The notes beneath the pieces were generated by a model. It worked only from the letters and a program-made list of their open reading frames with translations, ran no database searches and was not told the origin of the DNA. 64,000 nucleotides of DNA, taken from the NCBI GenBank assembly GCA_913061415.1, contig CAJXUD010000013.1:1-64000 (forward strand), read 5' to 3'. Made by a program: the position numbers and the translations under genes. Shown here piece after piece: positions 26,634 to 39,711 of the stretch; positions within the stretch are counted from its first letter, which is position 1, and each line of letters starts with the position of its first letter. Source of the stretch: an uncultured Oleispira sp. (GTDB taxonomy: Bacteria; Pseudomonadota; Gammaproteobacteria; Pseudomonadales; Oceanobacteraceae).

Positions 26634-28331
26634 TCAATGAAAATTAAGTACATTAACAATTCCGGTATCCTGACCCAGTTCAACGTTTTTATGAATATTA
26701 TCAATTTTTTTAACATGTCCATCACGGCCGTGACGATAACTTTGTTCGTTAACAATGACTTTATAGGCTTTATTCATTAATAGCGCATGCTTCACTTCAG
26801 GCATCAATAAGGTACTTATGTCGGCTTCTAATGCTTTAAAAGCCGCTGTATTTTTTTCACCGTTATTATAATAAAACTTAGTTTTTACGGCATCATTATT
26901 ACGATACTCATTACCACTTGGGTTATGCGTTAAATAATATCCATATTCTCCAATTCCATCATTGCGTAATGGATCTGATATTCCAGATAAGTCTTTTTCA
27001 AGCCAGCTGTACCAGCCTTGCTTAAAGTTATTACTATCGAATTTACGCGAGAAAGAAAATGTCGTATCCGCAGTCGCTCCTGTTCCGCTATGGCAACCCA
27101 CGCAAAAATAACTTTCTTCATAAGATTGCGGCCTAAGGTCTCCTTGCTTATCTTCAATGAAACCTTGATATGTCCAACCCTGCGGCACGGTTAATCCCAC
27201 TTCCATATTACCCAGCACTTGTTTTGTTCGATCAGGGAAATCATGGCGCTCTTTAACTTCTTGAGTCGCAATACGTTCTAACTGATAATAATTACGCCAG
27301 TTATCTTTACGCGCATAACGCAGCTCTTTCATACGACTGGCCATCACGGTCTTACCATTTTGGGCATCGATATAGCGTACGCTGTGCAAAAACTCGGTCC
27401 CCACCGGAAAAAGGCCGGCAGCTAATTTCACGTCATCCTTTTCTAGTTTTGTTTTTGCTAAGCCAACATAGCTCATAAAAACATTATCATTAGGCGACCA
27501 AGAAAAGCGTATTGTATTCGTACGAGATAGCTTGCCATCTTTATTCAAATCTACGCTATAAAGTGTTTCATCTACTTCTGAGATGACTATATCTTTTTGC
27601 TTTAATAGAGATTCAATAATTGATAAATTCAGTTCATAAACGTCTTGATTGAAAAGGCCTTGTTCGTCTTTTCTAAATGCTTCGGGTAAGCGAATCATCA
27701 CGTCATCAGTTGAACCATTCACCGGCATAAACGTGCCTAAAAAAGGATAATAAGCAAAGACACGCCAGCCTGTTAAATTGCCATCTGGGGCTGTATCAAA
27801 TCCTTTTTCATTAAAATTATAATAACTGTCAGGAATGAAACCATCCCATTCGCCATTTTTATTTCTATCCCATTCTGCGGGTACTTCATTTAAAGCATCT
27901 GCTAAAATTAGGCGTCCATTATTCGTTTTATAGTTGTCTTGACGAACATAATTCAAAATAAAATCGTCCGTTATTTCTTCAACTTTTTCACTATTATCTT
28001 TGAACATGTTATGCCAGCGATTTATGACGCCTGGCTCGGGGAATACAAGTTCTTGCTGTACATCGATATCATTTAAAAAGTTAGGTGCCTTACTTTCGGT
28101 ATGACAGACATAGCAGGGATTATGAACGGCGCCATCGGCATCTGTGGTTTTTGTATAACACTGTGGGGGAATATAAGCCGTCGGATTTTCTAGAACGTCC
28201 TTTGTTAATTCATTGCTTGTTAATTCATTGCTTGTTAATTCATCGCTTTCAGATATTAAGCTTTCAGATTGAGAAGACTCACACCCAACAAGACACAAGA
28301 TTGCACAGTAAGAAAAAAAAATACGCAGCAT
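26634..28331 (-). CDS. Di-haem c-type cytochrome lipoprotein, unknown function
   Basis: 565 aa. Lipobox LVGC gives a lipidated Cys16. Two haem-binding CxxCH motifs, CYVCH (about residue 72) and CVGCH (about residue 415), so two covalent haems. A flexible N-terminal linker carries three in-frame copies of SNELT encoded by a 15-bp DNA repeat. No other domain is recognised. It is downstream of the PhoX-family gene on the same strand but separated by a terminator, so it is probably a separate unit. Confidence 0.75.
   Translation of the reverse strand: MLRIFFSYCAILCLVGCESSQSESLISESDELTSNELTSNELTKDVLENPTAYIPPQCYTKTTDADGAVHNPCYVCHTESKAPNFLNDIDVQQELVFPEPGVINRWHNMFKDNSEKVEEITDDFILNYVRQDNYKTNNGRLILADALNEVPAEWDRNKNGEWDGFIPDSYYNFNEKGFDTAPDGNLTGWRVFAYYPFLGTFMPVNGSTDDVMIRLPEAFRKDEQGLFNQDVYELNLSIIESLLKQKDIVISEVDETLYSVDLNKDGKLSRTNTIRFSWSPNDNVFMSYVGLAKTKLEKDDVKLAAGLFPVGTEFLHSVRYIDAQNGKTVMASRMKELRYARKDNWRNYYQLERIATQEVKERHDFPDRTKQVLGNMEVGLTVPQGWTYQGFIEDKQGDLRPQSYEESYFCVGCHSGTGATADTTFSFSRKFDSNNFKQGWYSWLEKDLSGISDPLRNDGIGEYGYYLTHNPSGNEYRNNDAVKTKFYYNNGEKNTAAFKALEADISTLLMPEVKHALLMNKAYKVIVNEQSYRHGRDGHVKKIDNIHKNVELGQDTGIVNVLNFH
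28202..28246. repeat. Three-copy 15-bp in-frame tandem repeat
   Basis: TTGTTAATTCATTGC is repeated three times head to tail (the third copy has one change). It lies in the linker-coding part of the di-haem lipoprotein gene and keeps frame, so copy-number change would only lengthen or shorten the linker by five residues. Confidence 0.85.
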
Positions 28332-28349
28332 AATTCACTCGTTTCCAAT

Positions 28350-28378
28350 AAAAAAAGGGTGGCCAATGCCACCCTTTC
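28350..28378 (-). terminator. Terminator of the PhoX-family gene
   Basis: Minus strand: AAAGGGTGGC, loop ATTG, GCCACCCTTTTTTT. Stem of at least seven GC-rich pairs and a T-run, 25 bp after the stop at 28403. Confidence 0.9.
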
Positions 28379-28402
28379 AATATTAACGTGCAAATATTAC
28401 GA

Positions 28403-30271
28403 TTAGTTTACAGCAGGGAAAGGACCCACATAACCGGTATAAGCACGCGCTTCACCTGCGCCCGTATTTTCATCACGATCAGACTCGCCATAAGGATGCT
28501 GAACAACAGACATCATATAAGCCCAACCATTGATATTAGGGTACCAGTATGGAGACGTTGTTTCCGCACCATAAGGCGTTGTTTGAATACGAACAAGATC
28601 TTGTGTGCTGAAATCGTAAGCCCAGATCGCATCGTTCTGGTGACCCGAACCCGTATCTTCACCCACAATTAATTTATCGTAGCCCGACATATACGTAACG
28701 TTATCGGGGTTTGATAAGCCGTCAATATGACACTTGTTTCCATTCTCGTAACCCACGGCCTGCGGCTCTGTCGTCGTACCATAACCACTGCCATCAACTG
28801 GACGACCAGCGATTAGACCTTTCATATTTTGTGCGACAAATTCTGATCCCATTCCCGCATTCGCCGCAAGGTCTAATTCATAAACACCACCGCATTTATT
28901 CATCTCAGTCAGTGCTATGTGATTAGGACCACCAAAGTCACTTGAAGAATCGTCGTCCATCATGCCTTTTTCAACAGAAGACATCGCAACGAATAACTTG
29001 TTGCGTTTCGCATCAAAGGTAACACCTTCTTCTTTTCTGAACTCGGTCGTTGCGCCTAGCATTGCTGCATAACGACGGGTTTCTAAACGTGAAGCGACGG
29101 TTTCCATGCCGTCATTTACTTTCAGGCATTCAAGCCCTTTACCACCCGCGTTGATTGCCGTAAACGTATCAGGGCAGGTAGAACCAACAGGGTCAGCTGT
29201 GGTAAAGATGTCTGCAAAAGTAGCCATACTCTTACCATTAGTACCCTTTACGTAATCTTGAATTTCAGCATCTGTCGCGTGCCCTAATGAAATCCATTCA
29301 AGATCTGCAGCGCCAATGCCTTCAGCAGACGTTTGATTCCACTTAGCGGCGTAGGTCGTTCCCGCGCTAAGATCTTTAGCCGTGTCTGCAACAAACATAT
29401 ACAAGCCAACGTTGGTGCCATCATCGGTCATATAAGCCGTTTTATTATCAGGCATCACATAAGATAGCTCGAACGCTAAACGGCCCATCGCGTAATGTTT
29501 AGTACTGGTAACGTCTGCACCTTCTGTTACAGCAACTTCAATGTTCCAACCGTAGTAGTAAGGGTTCCATTGATTGATATCAGTGTAATAATCCAGCATA
29601 CCCTTGGTATAGCCATCTGACTGCGCATCTGTGCCCGTGACCAATGAACGTGCATTCGGCTCATATTCTTCCGATGCTAAGTGCGTTGTCCAAGGTGTCA
29701 CTGATGCTGCACAATGTACCCAACCACCATCAACTCCAGACTGGTCAATTTGGCTCATGTTTTTAACACTTAACTCACCATTGCTTTTATCTTGATTTAA
29801 TTCCATCAAGAACATGGCGCCAGGCTTACTTTCAAATTGCGACACTGAAAATAATTTATTCCCGATCGGTAATAGTGACGTAAATTCGTTTGAGTCTGAA
29901 ATTTTAATCGAGCCATCGTCAGCTTTTAATACACTGCCCGATTGATCAATTAACTGGCCAAAATAAATACCATTAACATCATCTCCAGAGCGCACTAGTG
30001 TTTTATAAGCGCCCCCATAAACCTTGCCATCAATTATTGCGTCAGATGCCATTACGGTACGTTTCTCTGCATCTGTTTTAGGAGCGCTAACGCCGCTGAA
30101 TACCAAACTGGTAGGATCGACGACCGATACTGGTCCACCGGCACTTTTACCGTCTGTGCCTGGGGTTCCGTCAGCACCATCATCACTTGCACCGCAAGCG
30201 ATGAGCATGCTACTGGTCATGGCTAGAATAATCGCTTTGTATAAGGTATTTTTTTGAAGGAGTTCCATCAT
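28403..30271 (-). CDS. PhoX-family (DUF839) lipoprotein, probable phosphatase
   Basis: 622 aa. Lipobox LIAC gives a lipidated Cys near residue 26, followed by a Gly/Asp-rich linker. The body resembles the PhoX/DUF839 beta-propeller: ASEEYEPNA, LAFELSY followed by MTDDGTNVGLYMFV, GVTFDAKRNKLFVAMSS, HIDGLSNPDNV and LIVGEDTG. PhoX enzymes are calcium- and iron-dependent alkaline phosphatases. Whether this member is active is unproven. GAGAGA precedes the twin ATG (30271/30268). A candidate Pho box lies about 60-75 bp upstream, which supports a phosphate-scavenging role. Confidence 0.75.
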   Translation of the reverse strand: MMELLQKNTLYKAIILAMTSSMLIACGASDDGADGTPGTDGKSAGGPVSVVDPTSLVFSGVSAPKTDAEKRTVMASDAIIDGKVYGGAYKTLVRSGDDVNGIYFGQLIDQSGSVLKADDGSIKISDSNEFTSLLPIGNKLFSVSQFESKPGAMFLMELNQDKSNGELSVKNMSQIDQSGVDGGWVHCAASVTPWTTHLASEEYEPNARSLVTGTDAQSDGYTKGMLDYYTDINQWNPYYYGWNIEVAVTEGADVTSTKHYAMGRLAFELSYVMPDNKTAYMTDDGTNVGLYMFVADTAKDLSAGTTYAAKWNQTSAEGIGAADLEWISLGHATDAEIQDYVKGTNGKSMATFADIFTTADPVGSTCPDTFTAINAGGKGLECLKVNDGMETVASRLETRRYAAMLGATTEFRKEEGVTFDAKRNKLFVAMSSVEKGMMDDDSSSDFGGPNHIALTEMNKCGGVYELDLAANAGMGSEFVAQNMKGLIAGRPVDGSGYGTTTEPQAVGYENGNKCHIDGLSNPDNVTYMSGYDKLIVGEDTGSGHQNDAIWAYDFSTQDLVRIQTTPYGAETTSPYWYPNINGWAYMMSVVQHPYGESDRDENTGAGEARAYTGYVGPFPAVN

Positions 30272-30377: not shown

Positions 30378-31058
30378 TCAATAACGCTTTACAAAAACCA
30401 CTACACGTCGATTGCCTTGACGTTGCTGATTGAGAGGAAGGTTGTCAATTCCTTCTTTGGGTCGACTGTCTGCATAGCCTGCGGCTTTTAGACGTTCTTT
30501 TTCAATCCCTTGCGCCAATAGGTATTTCACAATATTGGTTGCACGTACGGAGGATAACTCCCAATTTGAAGGATATTTTTCTGTATGAATTGGCACATCA
30601 TCGGTATGCCCCTCCACTTCGACCATGTGAGTTTTATGACTGGTTTCTCGTATCACCTGCGTCACTTCTTTCAGTGTTGATATGGCTTCTGATTTAATAT
30701 CAGCAGAACCCGATTCATATAAAGCAACATTCGCAAATTCGATTTTTACACCTTGAGCATCAAGAGTTACAGAAACCTGATCTTCCAATCCCTTTTCCGC
30801 AATCAACTGCTCAAGACCTAATTTAATATCAGTAAAAGGCGTTGGCTGTGTTTCACCTGTCATCATTTCAGACAGGCCTTCTTTTAGAGCTTCGACCTTG
30901 CCTTGATTAATATCTGAGACAGACAGAATCATCACAAAGAATGCCAACAATAAGGTGACAGCATCAGAATAAGTAATTAACCAAGAACTGGATGAGTCTT
31001 CAAAGCTGGGGCGGCGACGCCTTAAACTACGATGCTTATTAGAAATAGAATCTGTCAT
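30378..31058 (-). CDS. MotB-like stator protein (ion-channel plug plus OmpA domain)
   Basis: 226 aa. Short basic cytoplasmic N-terminus, one transmembrane helix (about 26-48) with the ion-binding aspartate D32 in ITYSDAVTLLLAFFVM, and a C-terminal OmpA-like peptidoglycan-binding domain (VEGHTDDVPIHTEKYPSNWELSSVRA, GYADSRP). In flagellar stators this Asp carries H+ or Na+ and the OmpA domain anchors the complex. The helix looks closer to PomB than to E. coli MotB. Last gene of the five-gene motor-like operon; its start overlaps the motA-like stop (TAATG). Confidence 0.9.
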   Translation of the reverse strand: MTDSISNKHRSLRRRRPSFEDSSSSWLITYSDAVTLLLAFFVMILSVSDINQGKVEALKEGLSEMMTGETQPTPFTDIKLGLEQLIAEKGLEDQVSVTLDAQGVKIEFANVALYESGSADIKSEAISTLKEVTQVIRETSHKTHMVEVEGHTDDVPIHTEKYPSNWELSSVRATNIVKYLLAQGIEKERLKAAGYADSRPKEGIDNLPLNQQRQGNRRVVVFVKRY

Positions 31059-31861
31059 TACAGCTCTTCTTCTATAGGCTGATAACGAGCGTTCGGTTTA
31101 AGATAAGCATTTAACCGATCTTGCATAAAAAGCGCATCGCGTTTTTCGGCTAATAAAACAAAGCCTTCAACAATCATCTGGTCACGAAAGTACAGCGACT
31201 CCTGTTTTTCTGTGACTTGATTGGCTGCAGGGCGAAATAGAATATTGGCCAAGACAACACCATAAAGTGTTGTAATTAACGCTAATGCTAAGCCCTTACC
31301 TAACGCAGCCATATCACCATTCATATTATCGAGCATGATAATTAAACCAATAATGGTCCCCACCATACCGAAGCCCGGTGAATACACCGCCATGGTATTT
31401 AAGACTTTTGACTCTACCGTCATTCGCTGCCAGAAGGCGTCCATGTCGTCGGTTAGAATGGTGCGGATATCGTGGTTTTTATGACCACTGCTTAATAACT
31501 CCATACCGTGAGCTAAAAAGGGATCCTTACGTTCTTTATCGGTCAGTGAACTTTCTAGACCCGCAATGCCTTGTTGGCGATAAATCTGTGCCCATTCAAT
31601 AAAACGCTCAACATGCTTGCGTAAATGTTTTGTATCAGTGGGCGCATGAAACAAGGTTTCGAATATGGCTTTAACCGCCCTCAATACATCTGCGGTGGTA
31701 TAACTGATCAACGACGCTGCAAACGTACTGCCCGCAACCAAGGCAAAGCTCGATAGACTAACGAACATTAAATAATTATCAGTGCTTGAGACAATTGCAA
31801 ATATAAACAGACTGATCGCAACCGTAATCCCAAATAACGTACTAAATGAAAATCGATTCAT
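31058..31861 (-). CDS. MotA-like stator protein
   Basis: 267 aa with four predicted transmembrane helices (about 8-26, 32-54, 155-178, 188-210) and a large cytoplasmic loop. P162 (YSPGFGMVGTIIGL) and P211 match the conserved prolines of MotA. In the loop, R95 and E103 keep the eight-residue spacing of E. coli MotA R90/E98 and Vibrio PomA R88/E96, the residues that contact FliG. The protein therefore appears competent to drive a FliG-like rotor. AAGGA precedes the ATG. Coupled to the MotB-like gene. Confidence 0.9.
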   Translation of the reverse strand: MNRFSFSTLFGITVAISLFIFAIVSSTDNYLMFVSLSSFALVAGSTFAASLISYTTADVLRAVKAIFETLFHAPTDTKHLRKHVERFIEWAQIYRQQGIAGLESSLTDKERKDPFLAHGMELLSSGHKNHDIRTILTDDMDAFWQRMTVESKVLNTMAVYSPGFGMVGTIIGLIIMLDNMNGDMAALGKGLALALITTLYGVVLANILFRPAANQVTEKQESLYFRDQMIVEGFVLLAEKRDALFMQDRLNAYLKPNARYQPIEEEL

Positions 31862-31870
31862 ACTTGATCC

Positions 31871-33799
31871 TTAATTTGGATTCGCAACAGCGATCAATTC
31901 TTCCATAGAGAAACGACCCGCTTTTAATACTTCTCGCATTTTAGCCACGACTTGATTTCTCGCTTGCTCGGTCTGCTCTTGTGCTGCTTGGCCTTCTTGA
32001 ACTTTTAATTCAGCAATAACCGCTGAGCGCAGTTTTACTGGCAGGCCGGTTAATACATGTCGCTTAAATTCAATCGGGGTATTGCATAAAGACAGTGCCA
32101 TTATGCTGCGATCAATCTCTCTGAGTTCATTCGCGATAACTCGCTCTGGCGTTCTCATAAGATCGGCGTAGGTATAATAAACTTGGCGTAAACGATAATA
32201 AGTTTCTGGCTTATCAGATTTCAACGTTTTGAGTAAGCGAGCCTCTTCTCCACTACTCATGGTATCGAGCATATTAATCAACACCGATAGACCATTGGCA
32301 GACACATTTTCGAAACTCGGAACATTCAATGATTTCTTAGCTAAGCGGTCCGCAACATCTTTGAAGGTTGAAATCGGTAAGGTTTCAAATTCGCCTAATT
32401 CATAAGCCACTGCTGATTGCTCTCGCCCTTCTAAACGCTGTACCAAACTGGCGGCGCGTTTAGCAGGTAGCTGAGAGAACACTAATGCTTTTATTCGTGT
32501 TTCTTCATCTTTAATGAGGTACAAGACTTGTGAATCATTTAACTTATCTAAGAAAGCAAAAGGCGCGTTACCGGTTTCATCATCACCCAACGCTTTTAAC
32601 ATCTCATGTCGAAGGTTGTTCAGATAAGTGATTCGCTGTTCGTTATCCAACGGCTCTCTTGCTGCTTGTTCCGCAAAGGCCTCGGCATCTTCATTCGATA
32701 TTTTGGGATATAAACTGCGAAACAGCCCTTTTCCTAATACTTCATGCAGCGCAGCCACATTTTGATTGTTGCCACTGTTTAGCTGCTCATTAATTCTCTG
32801 CTGAAATAACTGTGGCTGGCCTAGACCAATAGTCACCAATTCTTGGCGTAATTCGTTCAACTGTCGGCGCTTATCTCGATAATCATTATTAGCCGGTTCT
32901 TCAGCGGAAACATCTGGTGCAATAGTCGGCGTCGAGCTTGGCATATCATGACTATTTCTAGACTTGTCTTGCAGAGTAGCGCCTAAGCGCTTATTAAATA
33001 AATACAACGCCAGTAGCAATAGCAGCATCATAAAACCAAAGCAGCCCAACATGATCCAGCCTTGGTACTTCTGCCAACCTGCTAATGCGTCATTAGGATT
33101 TTCGACCTTTTTAAATGTTGTTCTAACAATGCTAAATGAATCGCCACGCAGCTCATCTAAACGAGCTTTACGGGTAATTAAGTTACGAATAAATTCAACT
33201 TGATCATCTTTCAGCTCTTTATCTAAAACTAACGTAATCGTCAGTTTGTTAATCGTATTTCGATAGCCTAAGGTTTTATTTTTTATTTCTTCTATTTGCT
33301 TTTCTGCTTCTTGGCGTAAGGTTTCGGCATAATTTAATGCTTGCTGCCTTTCACTCTCAAGCTGCTGAATGCGAAGTTTAAGTGTATTAAGCTCGGCGCT
33401 ATTATCTTCAAAAACCGGAAGATCACTCGTCGGCAATCCAGGCAAAGTCTCTTCAACTTCTCTTGGTTTATTGGTAATGGTAAAAGGCAGAGGCTTTGAG
33501 CTAAATACTGGACGTTCAGGAATATTTTTTGATCCTGTGCTAGACCTTTCTTTCACAATGGTTCGCGTCTTCTTCAGTTCAGCTTCAACATGAATAATAA
33601 AGCGGTTATTGCCAAGGTAGGCTTGAAGGTCACGATTTAAACGCGCCTCCATCTCATCTTTAAAACGAACCTCTTCAACCTCGTCCCTTTTAGCGGGTAC
33701 TTCAAAGGTTTTTCCCGTTTCGGCGTAAGCATTCACCGCGGGATATATCACTGAAATAATCAGGCATAATTTGATGGCAGTTTTTAACACTCTATTCAT
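31871..33799 (-). CDS. Natural FliF(C-terminal)-FliG fusion protein
   Basis: 642 aa. Cleavable-type signal peptide (to AYA, about 26). Residues about 45-75 and 185-230 match the FliF/YscJ ring-building and collar region (EARLNRDLQAYLGNNRF, ITLVLDKELKDDQVEFI, LRGDSFSIV), with a coiled coil between (135-180). Transmembrane helix 248-270. The cytoplasmic part has FliG N- (about 315-405), middle (415-490) and C-terminal (500-630) domains. By-eye alignment puts lysine 589 at E. coli FliG R281 and E597 at D289, while K264 and D288 are replaced by Cys and Ala. ATG 33799 has AGGGGA six bases upstream. It lies next to MotA/MotB-like genes and far from flagellar genes. Confidence 0.8.
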   Translation of the reverse strand: MNRVLKTAIKLCLIISVIYPAVNAYAETGKTFEVPAKRDEVEEVRFKDEMEARLNRDLQAYLGNNRFIIHVEAELKKTRTIVKERSSTGSKNIPERPVFSSKPLPFTITNKPREVEETLPGLPTSDLPVFEDNSAELNTLKLRIQQLESERQQALNYAETLRQEAEKQIEEIKNKTLGYRNTINKLTITLVLDKELKDDQVEFIRNLITRKARLDELRGDSFSIVRTTFKKVENPNDALAGWQKYQGWIMLGCFGFMMLLLLLALYLFNKRLGATLQDKSRNSHDMPSSTPTIAPDVSAEEPANNDYRDKRRQLNELRQELVTIGLGQPQLFQQRINEQLNSGNNQNVAALHEVLGKGLFRSLYPKISNEDAEAFAEQAAREPLDNEQRITYLNNLRHEMLKALGDDETGNAPFAFLDKLNDSQVLYLIKDEETRIKALVFSQLPAKRAASLVQRLEGREQSAVAYELGEFETLPISTFKDVADRLAKKSLNVPSFENVSANGLSVLINMLDTMSSGEEARLLKTLKSDKPETYYRLRQVYYTYADLMRTPERVIANELREIDRSIMALSLCNTPIEFKRHVLTGLPVKLRSAVIAELKVQEGQAAQEQTEQARNQVVAKMREVLKAGRFSMEELIAVANPN

Positions 33800-33809
33800 C
33801 ATCATTCCC

Positions 33810-34532
33810 CTACCTCAAGCGTGCCAAACTGGATTTAACTTGCTCCATATTCGGATCAATTTCTAACGCTTGCTGCCAGCTCGCTTTGGCTTCTGGTATC
33901 AACCCCATCTTGTAATAGATACTGCCTTTTAAAGCATGAGCTTGCGCAGAATCAGGAACCAGCTCTAGCGCTTTATTCGTTTCATCCAATGATTGCCAAT
34001 ACTGTTTTTTGTAGAAGAGCGATTGCGCACTGAATATATGCTTAGTAGATGCTTTAAAATCTTGAATTTTCTTTTGTTCAACCAGATCGTTGCGCTGCTC
34101 AAATTCTTCATGGTGCGCTTCCGCTTTTTCATCATTTAAGCTGGCAAGAACTTGCTTATTCTTTTCTGCAATTTCCTCAGCTGTTTTTTGTAAATCACCG
34201 TTACTAGAATCTTCCATCGCTCCCGCCGATTTTGGTAGCTTCATGCTGAAGCTCACATCACTATCACCGGCATCAAGGGTCATTAATACATCAAAGCCTG
34301 GCCCGTAACGGTGAATGTGCATCAAGCCATGATTCTTTTTGGCTAGATCTGCGACTTGCTTGCGCTTCTCAATGGTTTCTAATGAGATCTCTGCGGTAGC
34401 TTCTGTGCTTTGCTCTCCAATCCCCTTTAACTCAGGCTGATAAGTCCCATACTTAGTCAGAGTTCGATTGGTTCTTTCATGCGTACAGGCACTGATTAAT
34501 ACTACTAATAATACGATCGCTAACTGTTTCAT
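33810..34532 (-). CDS. TPR lipoprotein of the motor-like operon
   Basis: 240 aa. Lipobox ISAC gives a lipidated Cys16. The middle (about 85-165) is charged and probably helical. The C-terminal third contains at least two tetratricopeptide repeats (FYKKQYWQSLDETNKALELVPDSAQAHALKG... and YYKMGLIPEAKASWQQALEIDP). AAGGACAC precedes the ATG at good spacing. It lies between the barrel gene and the FliF-FliG gene with 9-10 bp gaps, so co-expression is very likely. It may assemble outer-membrane and inner-membrane parts, as lipoproteins with TPRs do in other trans-envelope machines. Confidence 0.8.
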   Translation of the reverse strand: MKQLAIVLLVVLISACTHERTNRTLTKYGTYQPELKGIGEQSTEATAEISLETIEKRKQVADLAKKNHGLMHIHRYGPGFDVLMTLDAGDSDVSFSMKLPKSAGAMEDSSNGDLQKTAEEIAEKNKQVLASLNDEKAEAHHEEFEQRNDLVEQKKIQDFKASTKHIFSAQSLFYKKQYWQSLDETNKALELVPDSAQAHALKGSIYYKMGLIPEAKASWQQALEIDPNMEQVKSSLARLR

Positions 34533-34541
34533 AATGTGTCC

Positions 34542-35603
34542 TTAAAAGCGCATGCCCAGTGTTAAGTCATAACTTGCACCGCCAAATGTGCCAGTCTCTT
34601 CATACGCAGTATCTTTTTTCCACTTAACGACGGTGTCTTGCATATAGATCACGCCAAAGTCCATGAAGCCGTCTTTGAAAAAGGGAAACTCAAAGCCAAA
34701 CCGAAAAACCAAGCTATTCGCATCATTAAAAAATGATTGCCCAATACCTAAATACACCTTGGTTTCTAAGACATCATCCAATGAAGAGACATCGGCAATG
34801 ATTCGTCCTTCTAGGTTGTAACCACTTAGGTCAAAAATATCTCCAGATGAGTAGTTAGCAAAGTATTCAAGGCCTAAAGTGTATTCAACATTTTCGTTTA
34901 GCCCAGTGCTTTCTCTACGTCGAATACCCAATACGGTTGCGCCATTTAGCTCAACATCGTCAGCGGCAACAAGGCCTTTCCGTTCTCCTTTAATGCCCCA
35001 AGCGCCAACAATGACTTCATACTGAACCTTGTCAAAATCTTCTAGCTCAGCTTCTTTTGTTGTTTTTTTAGAATATTCTTTCAGCCATAGCAGTTCATTA
35101 TTGCCACCATCCACTAAACGCAAATTAATGGTGAATTTATCCTGATGTACCGAAGCACTCCAAAACATAAAGGCATCCGCTCGTACTTTCTTTGATAAGA
35201 CTCGTAACTCTTGGTTAGTTTCGGCGGCTTGCGATATTTTAAGCTCGTCTTCTGCCATCATTACTTTGGTGGTTCTACATTCAATACATTGAATCACCTC
35301 AAAGCGACCACTTTCCATTAAGCGCCCCATCAGTTTGTTTTCAATCATTTGATGAACTTGCTTAGGAATTAAGCGATGTAAGCGATCGCCATTATGGTAA
35401 AGCGCGATGCGTTTAACCTCTTGGTCTAAGTCGATCAGTTCTTCTAAGACTAGGGTCTTATCATCATCCAATAATTGCCCAAAGCCGGTATAAAGCGTTG
35501 CCGGGGGCTCGGCTATCAGTGGCAGTTCAGACTCCGCCGCATAAGCATAATTGATCGATAGCAGCAGACCGATACACAGTAGTTTTATATTTCGCACAAG
35601 CAT
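34542..35603 (-). CDS. Outer-membrane protein with FlgO-like N-terminal domain and beta-barrel C-terminus
   Basis: 353 aa. Signal peptide ending at AYAAE. Residues about 60-190 look like the FlgO/CsgG-type fold (MIENKLMGRLMESGRFEVIQCIEC, DAFMFWSASVHQDKFTINLRLVDGG). The remainder alternates polar and aromatic residues as amphipathic strands and ends in LTLGMRF, the C-terminal phenylalanine signature of outer-membrane barrels. Two cysteines (CIEC) could form a disulfide. ATG 35603 is chosen because AAGGA is six bases upstream; ATG 35609 directly abuts it. First gene of the operon. Confidence 0.75.
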   Translation of the reverse strand: MLVRNIKLLCIGLLLSINYAYAAESELPLIAEPPATLYTGFGQLLDDDKTLVLEELIDLDQEVKRIALYHNGDRLHRLIPKQVHQMIENKLMGRLMESGRFEVIQCIECRTTKVMMAEDELKISQAAETNQELRVLSKKVRADAFMFWSASVHQDKFTINLRLVDGGNNELLWLKEYSKKTTKEAELEDFDKVQYEVIVGAWGIKGERKGLVAADDVELNGATVLGIRRRESTGLNENVEYTLGLEYFANYSSGDIFDLSGYNLEGRIIADVSSLDDVLETKVYLGIGQSFFNDANSLVFRFGFEFPFFKDGFMDFGVIYMQDTVVKWKKDTAYEETGTFGGASYDLTLGMRF

Positions 35604-35719
35604 CAACATTCCTTAACCCTGATGTTTTTTTCAGATTTCTAATGTCAGCATAGTTCAGATATTTAGCTTCGAGGACAAATTCGAACAATTTGCTATACTT
35701 TTAATCTAACGGAGGATTT

Positions 35720-38724: not shown

Positions 38725-39267
38725 ATGAAAACCCCACTCATTATCGCCTCATTTTTATGCGTTAGTGGCGGCATCATGCTGGCCAATGCACAAACGAGCG
38801 AAAACCCTTACTATTCAAGTGACATTGATGCGGCCGTTCAAGAAGCGGAAAATAGCCCTGCCGACGAGACTTACGTTGGTAATCGCTGGTATAACCGCAG
38901 CACATCAAAAAGCTTTGATTTTCCTAAATTGATGAATACAGAAATGTCTTCTGAAATCGTCGACGGGGCGTTAGATGCTACTGCAGCGGGCCCTGCAGAC
39001 GTTGCACCCGTTCGAACATCGCCATTAGAGCTCAGTGCTGAGAATATCATTATCAACAAGCAGAGTGACGCTGAATTAGAATTTTTAGCCGATACTAAAA
39101 CGCTCAGTATCGATACAGCGATACAACCATCTTCTAAAAAAGAAGATATTACGCCAGTATCCTTTGAAATTGATAAGATTGAATATACTTCTGGCGCATT
39201 CTCTGGAAGTGCCAAAGATATTCGCTCTACGTCACGCTCAAGAGCTTATTACACCCCAGAACCTTAA
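38725..39267 (+). CDS. Exported protein with YNRST motif, paralogue 1
   Basis: 180 aa with a signal peptide (to about ANAQT). After it comes NPYYSSDIDAAVQEAE, then RWYNRSTSKSFDFPKLMNTEMS. The same pattern recurs in the next gene, so the two are paralogues. The C-terminal half is low-complexity and polar. No known family. Upstream of the gene (38668-38708) the leader is an A-rich run of CAAAAAA-like units, leading to GGGAG before the ATG. Confidence 0.7.
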   Translation: MKTPLIIASFLCVSGGIMLANAQTSENPYYSSDIDAAVQEAENSPADETYVGNRWYNRSTSKSFDFPKLMNTEMSSEIVDGALDATAAGPADVAPVRTSPLELSAENIIINKQSDAELEFLADTKTLSIDTAIQPSSKKEDITPVSFEIDKIEYTSGAFSGSAKDIRSTSRSRAYYTPEP

Positions 39268-39282
39268 GTCAGGTAATGCTGT

Positions 39283-39711
39283 ATGAAGACGAATAATAAA
39301 CACATAATCGCCTTAATAATCATGAGCTTAACTCCAGTACTAAGCTGGGGGGTGAACCCTCATGACGAATACTATGCAGATGATATTTTTACTGCGATTA
39401 ATGAAGCGAAAAAAAGACCGCATCATTACGACTACAGTACGGCCAAACGCTACAACCGCTCTACGACGCAAAGCCTTGATATTCCTAGACTTTTAAATAA
39501 AGAGATGAGTATTACCAGCATTGATAGTAAGGATGAAAATTTGGTTACCGCCGCCGATACTCCGATCAGTAATCAGCACCAAGAGGCCTATGAAGTTAAT
39601 GATGATGGGGTAACAGAAGTGAGAGCTTTGCCGATTAATACAGTGTCACCACTGATTAGTAATCCGAACGTTATTTCACCCAATGTTAGAACAAATATCA
39701 TCGCCCGCTGA
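39283..39711 (+). CDS. Exported protein with YNRST motif, paralogue 2
   Basis: 142 aa with a signal peptide (about 24 residues, ending near LSWGV). The mature N-terminus HDEYYADDIFTAINEAKKRP and RYNRSTTQSLDIPRLLNKEMS aligns with the upstream gene over about 45 residues; the rest differs. It starts 16 bp after paralogue 1, so the pair is an operon. Function unknown; the shared element may be a binding or assembly motif. Confidence 0.7.
   Translation: MKTNNKHIIALIIMSLTPVLSWGVNPHDEYYADDIFTAINEAKKRPHHYDYSTAKRYNRSTTQSLDIPRLLNKEMSITSIDSKDENLVTAADTPISNQHQEAYEVNDDGVTEVRALPINTVSPLISNPNVISPNVRTNIIAR

Follow-up and report, generated by a model that had tools for sequence, protein, structure and literature searches.

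Bacteria may use a flagellar-type motor for a purpose other than spinning a flagellum, as our data on some marine bacteria suggest. The window, by which we mean the whole stretch of 64,000 nucleotides analysed here (contig CAJXUD010000013.1 of an uncultured Oleispira sp.), encodes a protein in which the RBM3 domain of FliF is fused to the M and C domains of FliG, and its gene lies in a block of five with genes for MotA, MotB and two outer-membrane partners (Table 1). We read this block, with a probability of about 0.64, as encoding a FliF-FliG ring that is driven by MotAB, independent of the flagellum, and has no export gate or switch. The fusion itself had been described in an earlier note on this DNA; that observation is confirmed and the interpretation given with it is partly supported. 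The dedicated MotA and MotB, the two outer-membrane partners and a carrier genome with no detected flagellar markers are what give the fusion its meaning, and these are absent from the earlier note.

Table 1. Features of the five-gene block and of the fusion protein (coordinates are positions of the window)
Feature	Coordinates	Strand	Description and evidence
FliF(RBM3)-FliG fusion, proposed rotor subunit	31871..33805	minus	644 aa; ORF, Pfam, PDB profile, model, 23 carriers
RBM3, first half	33551..33691	minus	residues 39-85; Pfam, model, structural alignment
Insert where the FliF beta-collar would be	33278..33550	minus	residues 86-176; coiled coil 136-174, low confidence 87-137 (model)
RBM3, second half	33110..33277	minus	residues 177-232; Pfam, model, alignment; hhalign to flagellar FliF 74.9%
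Transmembrane helix	32984..33067	minus	residues ~247-274; hydropathy, helix in model
Helical region in FliG_N position, homology weak	32588..32893	minus	residues 305-406; hhalign, whole-FliG alignment rows
FliG_M, EHPQ loop lost	32321..32533	minus	residues 425-495; Pfam, alignment
FliG_C, stator-facing domain	31907..32227	minus	residues 527-633; Pfam, fold, alignment
MotA/PomA-type stator subunit	31058..31861	minus	267 aa; PF01618 92.2 bits; conserved rotor-facing residues; tree
MotB-type stator subunit	30378..31058	minus	226 aa; plug PF13677, OmpA peptidoglycan-binding PF00691, ion-site Asp32
TPR lipoprotein	33810..34532	minus	240 aa; lipobox Cys16; TPR families
Outer-membrane protein	34542..35609	minus	355 aa; LpoB/GNA1162-type periplasmic domain 39-182 and 8-stranded OmpA-like barrel 192-354; model

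The fusion carries recognizable parts of both FliF and FliG. Its open reading frame begins with three candidate Met codons (MMMN), the third of which is the start at 33799 given in the earlier note, and a purine-rich stretch lies immediately upstream of them. The Pfam scores are 50.3 bits for FliG_C (curated cut-off 23.3), 49.0 bits for FliG_M (cut-off 25) and 26.7 bits for YscJ_FliF_C (PF08345, cut-off 23.8). FliG_M and FliG_C are also matched in all six further full-length members tested, and the RBM3 score falls under its cut-off in five of six further members tested. The RBM1/RBM2 family (PF01514) has no Pfam match in the fusion, and none of the ten proteins scanned with NCBIfam reached the curated cut-off of a listed model. 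A profile built from seven fusion members matched, in the PDB, the solved FliG 3hjl (1.6e-28), the engineered Vibrio FliF-FliG fusion 8z4d (1.7e-23, profile positions 209-644) and the solved FliF 6scn (1.6e-11). The profile-profile comparison proposed in the earlier note agrees, with hhalign giving 99.6% for the FliG M/C part and linking the second RBM3 half to flagellar FliF (Table 1).

We predicted the structure of the fusion with AlphaFold2. The model has a mean pLDDT of 67.7 and a pTM of 0.30 and is hence interpreted domain by domain only. Modelled residues 38/39-232 superpose on the RBM3 domain of FliF 8z5v_A (Z 13.4, 97 aligned, rmsd 2.3), and the model likewise aligns with RBM3 of 7d84_A (Z 13.1, 95 aligned, rmsd 1.8); overall the RBM3 alignments have Z ~13 and rmsd ~2 over 95-99 residues. 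The last 220 residues align with the FliG M-C structure 4fhr_B (Z 15.8, 208 aligned), with an rmsd of 13.2 that we attribute to the hinge between the FliG domains, and the modelled C domain is close to the MotAB-bound FliG_C 8ucs_H (Z 13.1, 88 aligned, rmsd 1.5). Two other folds were considered and rejected: SpoIIIAG for the RBM3 part (5wc3 with Z 8.1, against Z ~13 for FliF) and MgtE_N for the FliG_M part (MgtE rows with Z at most 8.5 and PF03448 with E 0.054, the FliG rows being far higher and FliG_C matched separately). Chance or mis-annotation as the source of the fusion is ruled out by the Pfam, PDB profile and fold matches, the 23 carriers and purifying selection.

The topology suggested earlier, with a signal-like N-terminus, a periplasmic FliF part containing a coiled-coil insert, one transmembrane helix and then FliG, is backed by the model and by hydropathy maxima at residues ~6-28 (signal-like) and ~247-274 (transmembrane). 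That one polypeptide joins FliF RBM3 to FliG M/C is likewise borne out by the Pfam, PDB profile and structural evidence. Two of the earlier descriptions have to be narrowed. FliG was called complete, which holds for the M and C domains; the N domain shows weak homology (hhalign probability 16.8%, E 0.0015, 55 columns) and has no properly positioned Pfam match in the window fusion or in six further members, and the helical region at its position is spanned by the whole-FliG structural rows 8umx_B and 8wiw_3. The other part was called the ring-building C-terminus of FliF. Both RBM3 halves are kept and structure prediction recovers the RBM3 and FliG M-C folds, but the beta-collar position is filled by a coiled-coil or low-complexity insert of ~90 residues, modelled at low confidence, and RBM1/RBM2 are absent, with ~10 residues separating the signal-like helix from RBM3 in the model.

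The fusion gene apparently belongs to one operon of five genes. These lie on the same strand in the order outer-membrane protein, TPR lipoprotein, fusion, MotA and MotB, with 9, 4 and 9 bases between successive genes and a one-base overlap of the last two, as measured by ORF coordinates. A promoter and terminator scan of the block gave sites no more numerous than in shuffled sequence, so the operon structure is read from gene spacing alone. The block MotA is closer to flagellar PomA/MotC-type proteins than to ExbB/TolQ, in a tree whose inner nodes are weakly supported and which drew long-branch warnings. Cys16 of the TPR lipoprotein is kept in at least 95% of the 23 carriers. The modelled barrel of the outer-membrane protein resembles that of OprF (Z 15.5, 119 aligned, rmsd 2.7), and its modelled periplasmic domain resembles LpoB (Z 9.7, 121 aligned, rmsd 3.0), with weak matches to FlgT_M and FlgO (E 0.019 and 0.1) that are under the Pfam cut-offs. 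FlgT and FlgO belong to the outer ring of the Vibrio flagellum (H-ring/T-ring proteins, with MotX), and PelC and CsgG form rings.

Two other groups of genes were seen near the block. Directly downstream (26634-30271) lie genes for PhoX-like and cytochrome-P460-like proteins. Many family loci have relatives of these close to the block, oriented either way, so that they are linked to it without clearly belonging to it. At 38725-39711 on the plus strand a tandem pair of related, small, secreted-looking proteins with no Pfam family is encoded, and relatives of these are found close to the block in 16 of the 23 loci compared.

The block is kept as a unit and has a patchy distribution. The full-length fusion was found in 19 of 34 genomes of the window's own family and in none of the 21 further genomes from the order that were examined with them. 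A class-wide sample gave 4 carriers among 369 genomes, the window's genome included, the other matches being judged ordinary FliG by coverage except for one protein in genome G047, and a phylum-wide sample gave 1 among 398, which is the window's own (E<=1e-30). A scan of named genomes with two short patterns, which undercounts and missed most family members, added one further carrier (locus L040 in genome G422), so that the distinct carriers total 23. Two carriers of the family are named, an uncultured Oleispira MAG (L038 = G369) and a Thalassolituus MAG (L037 = G371). The plasmid search for the fusion returned a single ordinary FliG only. The G047 protein (L033:6244-8256) has 670 residues with a signal-like N-terminus, a transmembrane helix and a FliG_M-like stretch, no FliG_C match and no Pfam match; it is encoded beside a fabG-like gene, in a genome where neither a FliF N-domain nor FliM/FliN was found.

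All five genes are present in 22 of the 23 carriers, the exception being G097 (locus L041). They occur in the window, in all 18 other family loci (in one of which the contig ends within the barrel gene) and also in L039, L040 and L042, the last two with a different gene order. Comparing the 23 loci, we found that the gene families common to the family loci and L039/L040/L042 are those five; L041 shares the fusion, the TPR gene and one unrelated cluster with five family loci. The barrel gene follows the fusion within the family (19/19 genomes with the fusion and 0/15 without it), and outside these counts the barrel protein is present in G020, G052 and G422 and absent from G097 and G047. Against their homologues in L058 all five genes have pN/pS values of 0.067-0.157, with 0.157 for the fusion, which indicate purifying selection and are rough since synonymous sites are near saturation. 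One family copy (L067, genome G381) has an in-frame TAG that removes the FliG_C end of the fusion, a sequencing error or a sign of decay. A Sel1-repeat protein adjoins the block or the fusion in three lineages (L042:1569-3140, L040:5074-6654 and L041:6331-7827), the one in L042 with a SPOR domain, and a search of the other genomes gave no full-length match to it. MotX likewise has Sel1 repeats.

The residues at which stator and rotor would meet are kept throughout in MotA and in part in the fusion. In MotA, Arg95 (the E. coli R90 site) is kept in 22 of 22 sequences, as are both transmembrane prolines and the acid at 103 (the E98 site; E in 20, D in 2), and Asp32 of MotB is kept in 22 of 22. 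In the flagellar motor R90 pairs with D288-D289 and E98 with R281, according to the available part of PMC12505986. On the fusion side 22 rows could be scored, the 23rd being truncated. The R281 site holds a basic residue in 21 of the 22 and the D289 site an acidic one in 19; the D288 site is acidic in 6 of 22, the R297 site basic in 2 and the K264 site in none. L040 (G422) and L042 (G052), both of which have MotAB, carry A and T, respectively, at the D289 site, and the sole row neutral at both R281 and D289 sites (T, T) is that of G097, a carrier without flagellar-type MotA. The EHPQ loop, described in excerpts of PMC7355467 as the FliM contact, is found in 0 of 23 fusions versus 27 of 27 flagellar FliGs, the latter having been picked by similarity to the FliG of the window's genome and not by EHPQ. 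The RBM2 ring contacts the export gate, as stated in the accessible sections of PMC11481574. RBM1/RBM2 and the EHPQ loop are parts for which a motor that neither exports nor switches would have no need.

An alternative hypothesis could be that nothing rotates or that no ring forms, with MotAB energising the outer-membrane proteins in the way of TolQR, ExbBD or AglRQS and the FliF-FliG protein serving as a static adaptor. Other 5:2 motors do run without a FliG ring (reviewed in PMC9389320, as far as its available text goes), the charges of flagellar FliG are conserved only in part, and the insert modelled in place of the collar would alter the S-ring. We nevertheless consider this rather unlikely, since the peptidoglycan-anchoring OmpA domain of MotB suits a fixed stator, the rotor-facing charges of MotA and the MotAB-binding fold of FliG_C are retained, and so is, under purifying selection, the ring-building domain.

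Most carriers have markers of an ordinary flagellum as well. FlhA was found in 20 of the 23 carriers, all but G020, G097 and G422. As a FliF N-domain is present in G422, G020 and G097 alone appear to lack a flagellum. The completeness of G020 is 93% and that of G097 98%; G422 is probably incomplete and was left out of the flagellum-free count. Neither G020 nor G097 gave a FliF N-domain, FliM/FliN or an ordinary FliG at E<=1e-3, and among five carriers examined for PF01052 (FliM/FliN) the family is absent in G020, G097 and G422 and present in G000 and G052. The block is complete in G020, whose sole other PF01618 protein is TolQ-like by sequence. G097 has the fusion and the TPR protein, without flagellar-type MotA and without the barrel protein; its R281 and D289 sites are both T, and this indicates that the fusion can persist without its motor partners. 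Directly before the fusion, G097 also encodes a second FliF/RBM3-like transmembrane protein of 430 residues with no FliG part (L036:2660-3952).

The frequent presence of FlhA raises the question of whether the block is an accessory of the ordinary polar flagellum, adding stator or rotor parts or an outer-membrane ring to it. The resemblance of the block MotA to the PomA/MotC type rather than to ExbB/TolQ would fit such a role, as would the weak FlgT_M/FlgO matches in the barrel protein. We regard this explanation as quite unlikely. The full block exists in G020 with no flagellar markers detected, the flagellated carriers possess a separate FliG of their own, and an ordinary FliG is matched in 14 of the 15 family members that lack the block, so the flagella of this family do not need the block. 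The loss of EHPQ speaks against joining a FliM/FliN ring, and no flagellar family was found among the flanking ORFs scanned in L039 (7 of 9).

The FliG parts of the fusions form a group of their own. We built a FliG tree from 11 of the 23 fusions, 27 gammaproteobacterial FliGs, and an ordinary FliG and the sequence L043 from Neomarinimicrobiota. The fusion parts and L043 stand apart from the 27 gammaproteobacterial FliGs and the ordinary Neomarinimicrobiota FliG with support of 100/99. This separate position may be a long-branch artefact, and we claim no age for the fusion lineage since the branches are long, the bootstrap is unsettled, a long-branch-join warning was given and the root is unplaced. 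L043 (2-802) encodes the second, non-canonical FliG of a Neomarinimicrobiota MAG, which lacks EHPQ and is nearer to the fusions than its genome's ordinary FliG is. Its contig begins inside the gene, so that a fusion is not visible, and we take it with caution as evidence of a wider family; the same genome also encodes a separate FliF and FliG.

That the block is what remains of a second, decaying flagellar system, as the two carriers without flagellar markers, the in-frame stop in G381 and the patchy presence in the family (19/34) might suggest, is very improbable given the strong purifying selection on all five genes, the intact block in distant lineages, the co-occurrence of barrel and fusion (19/19 vs 0/15) and the grouping of the 11 fusion FliG parts outside the other FliGs.

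We return to the MotAB-driven ring and propose how it could work. The fusion would be the rotor subunit, with RBM3 domains building a ring in the periplasm, the single transmembrane helix crossing the inner membrane and the FliG M/C domains making a torque ring in the cytoplasm. MotA5-MotB2 units encoded by the operon itself, tethered to peptidoglycan through MotB, would drive this ring by contacts between MotA and FliG_C. The outer-membrane side would be formed by the TPR lipoprotein together with the barrel protein, the periplasmic domain of which resembles the LpoB/GNA1162/PelC fold group; the pair would serve as a bushing or as a load that transmits torque to the envelope or cell surface. 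Since this motor has no export gate, FliM/FliN switch or filament, its rotation would not be subject to switching of the CheY type. We infer ring assembly, rotation and its direction, and a driven load that could be surface movement, adhesion or outer-membrane transport. Such a motor could be a flagellar core put to a new use, or a cousin that predated the flagellum or coexisted with it.

The block is a concrete candidate for such a motor: rotor, stator and outer-membrane parts are kept together by selection, in one genome with no flagellar markers detected. Two questions become testable: whether a FliG ring without a flagellum can still be driven and serve a purpose, and whether a flagellar motor core can exist apart from a type III export system. 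No non-flagellar MotAB-FliG motor was found in the open-licence literature searched. We give even odds to the fuller proposal that this is the first known MotAB-turned ring of the FliF/FliG type outside the flagellum, one that would be stand-alone, unswitched and envelope-spanning, have its own outer-membrane ring and use a FliG lineage that branched off flagellar FliG ahead of the diversification of gammaproteobacterial FliG. Rotor proteins in non-motile species are raised as a question in the available text of PMC12199754.

Several known systems share parts with the block. The likeness to the Vibrio proteins FlgO and FlgT lies in the weak FlgT_M/FlgO matches of the barrel protein; in the block the domain sits instead on an 8-stranded barrel. 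TolQR, ExbBD, AglRQS, GldLM and Zorya have the same kind of ion-driven MotA/MotB-like units coupled to envelope proteins, but no FliG/FliF ring is described for them in the accessible portions of PMC9389320 and PMC12505986, and the block MotA is of the flagellar type. PMC12505986 splits the MotAB relatives into flagellar and non-flagellar clades, and its main text mentions FliG once.

A natural FliF-FliG fusion as such is already known, as the part of PMC4768692 at hand makes plain, and the fusion seen here is not without precedent. In Chlamydiaceae, bacteria not thought to be flagellated, a shortened FliF is fused to part of FliG. That protein of ~330 aa has RBM2 and FliG_M only, and the flagellar genes named there are FliF, FliL and FlhA; the window fusion differs in having RBM3, FliG_M, FliG_C and a dedicated MotAB. 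Engineered fusions in Salmonella and Vibrio (8z4d/8z4g) join the FliF C-terminus to FliG in the same way. They form rings (PMC11481574, in excerpt), and those of Salmonella assemble and rotate (PMC4768692, same excerpt), so the functional laboratory fusions cited in the earlier note are indeed on record. The Vibrio construct joins the whole flagellar FliF and FliG, whereas the window fusion has no RBM1/RBM2 and its block no flagellum.

The closest likeness is to the flagellar rotor and stator themselves. They have the same homologous RBM3, FliG_M/C, MotA and MotB, the same rotor-facing charges in MotA, and the same aspartate and peptidoglycan-binding domain in MotB. The block differs from them in its single FliF-FliG chain without RBM1/RBM2 and the EHPQ loop, and in carrying no export, switch, rod or filament genes while having dedicated outer-membrane partners.
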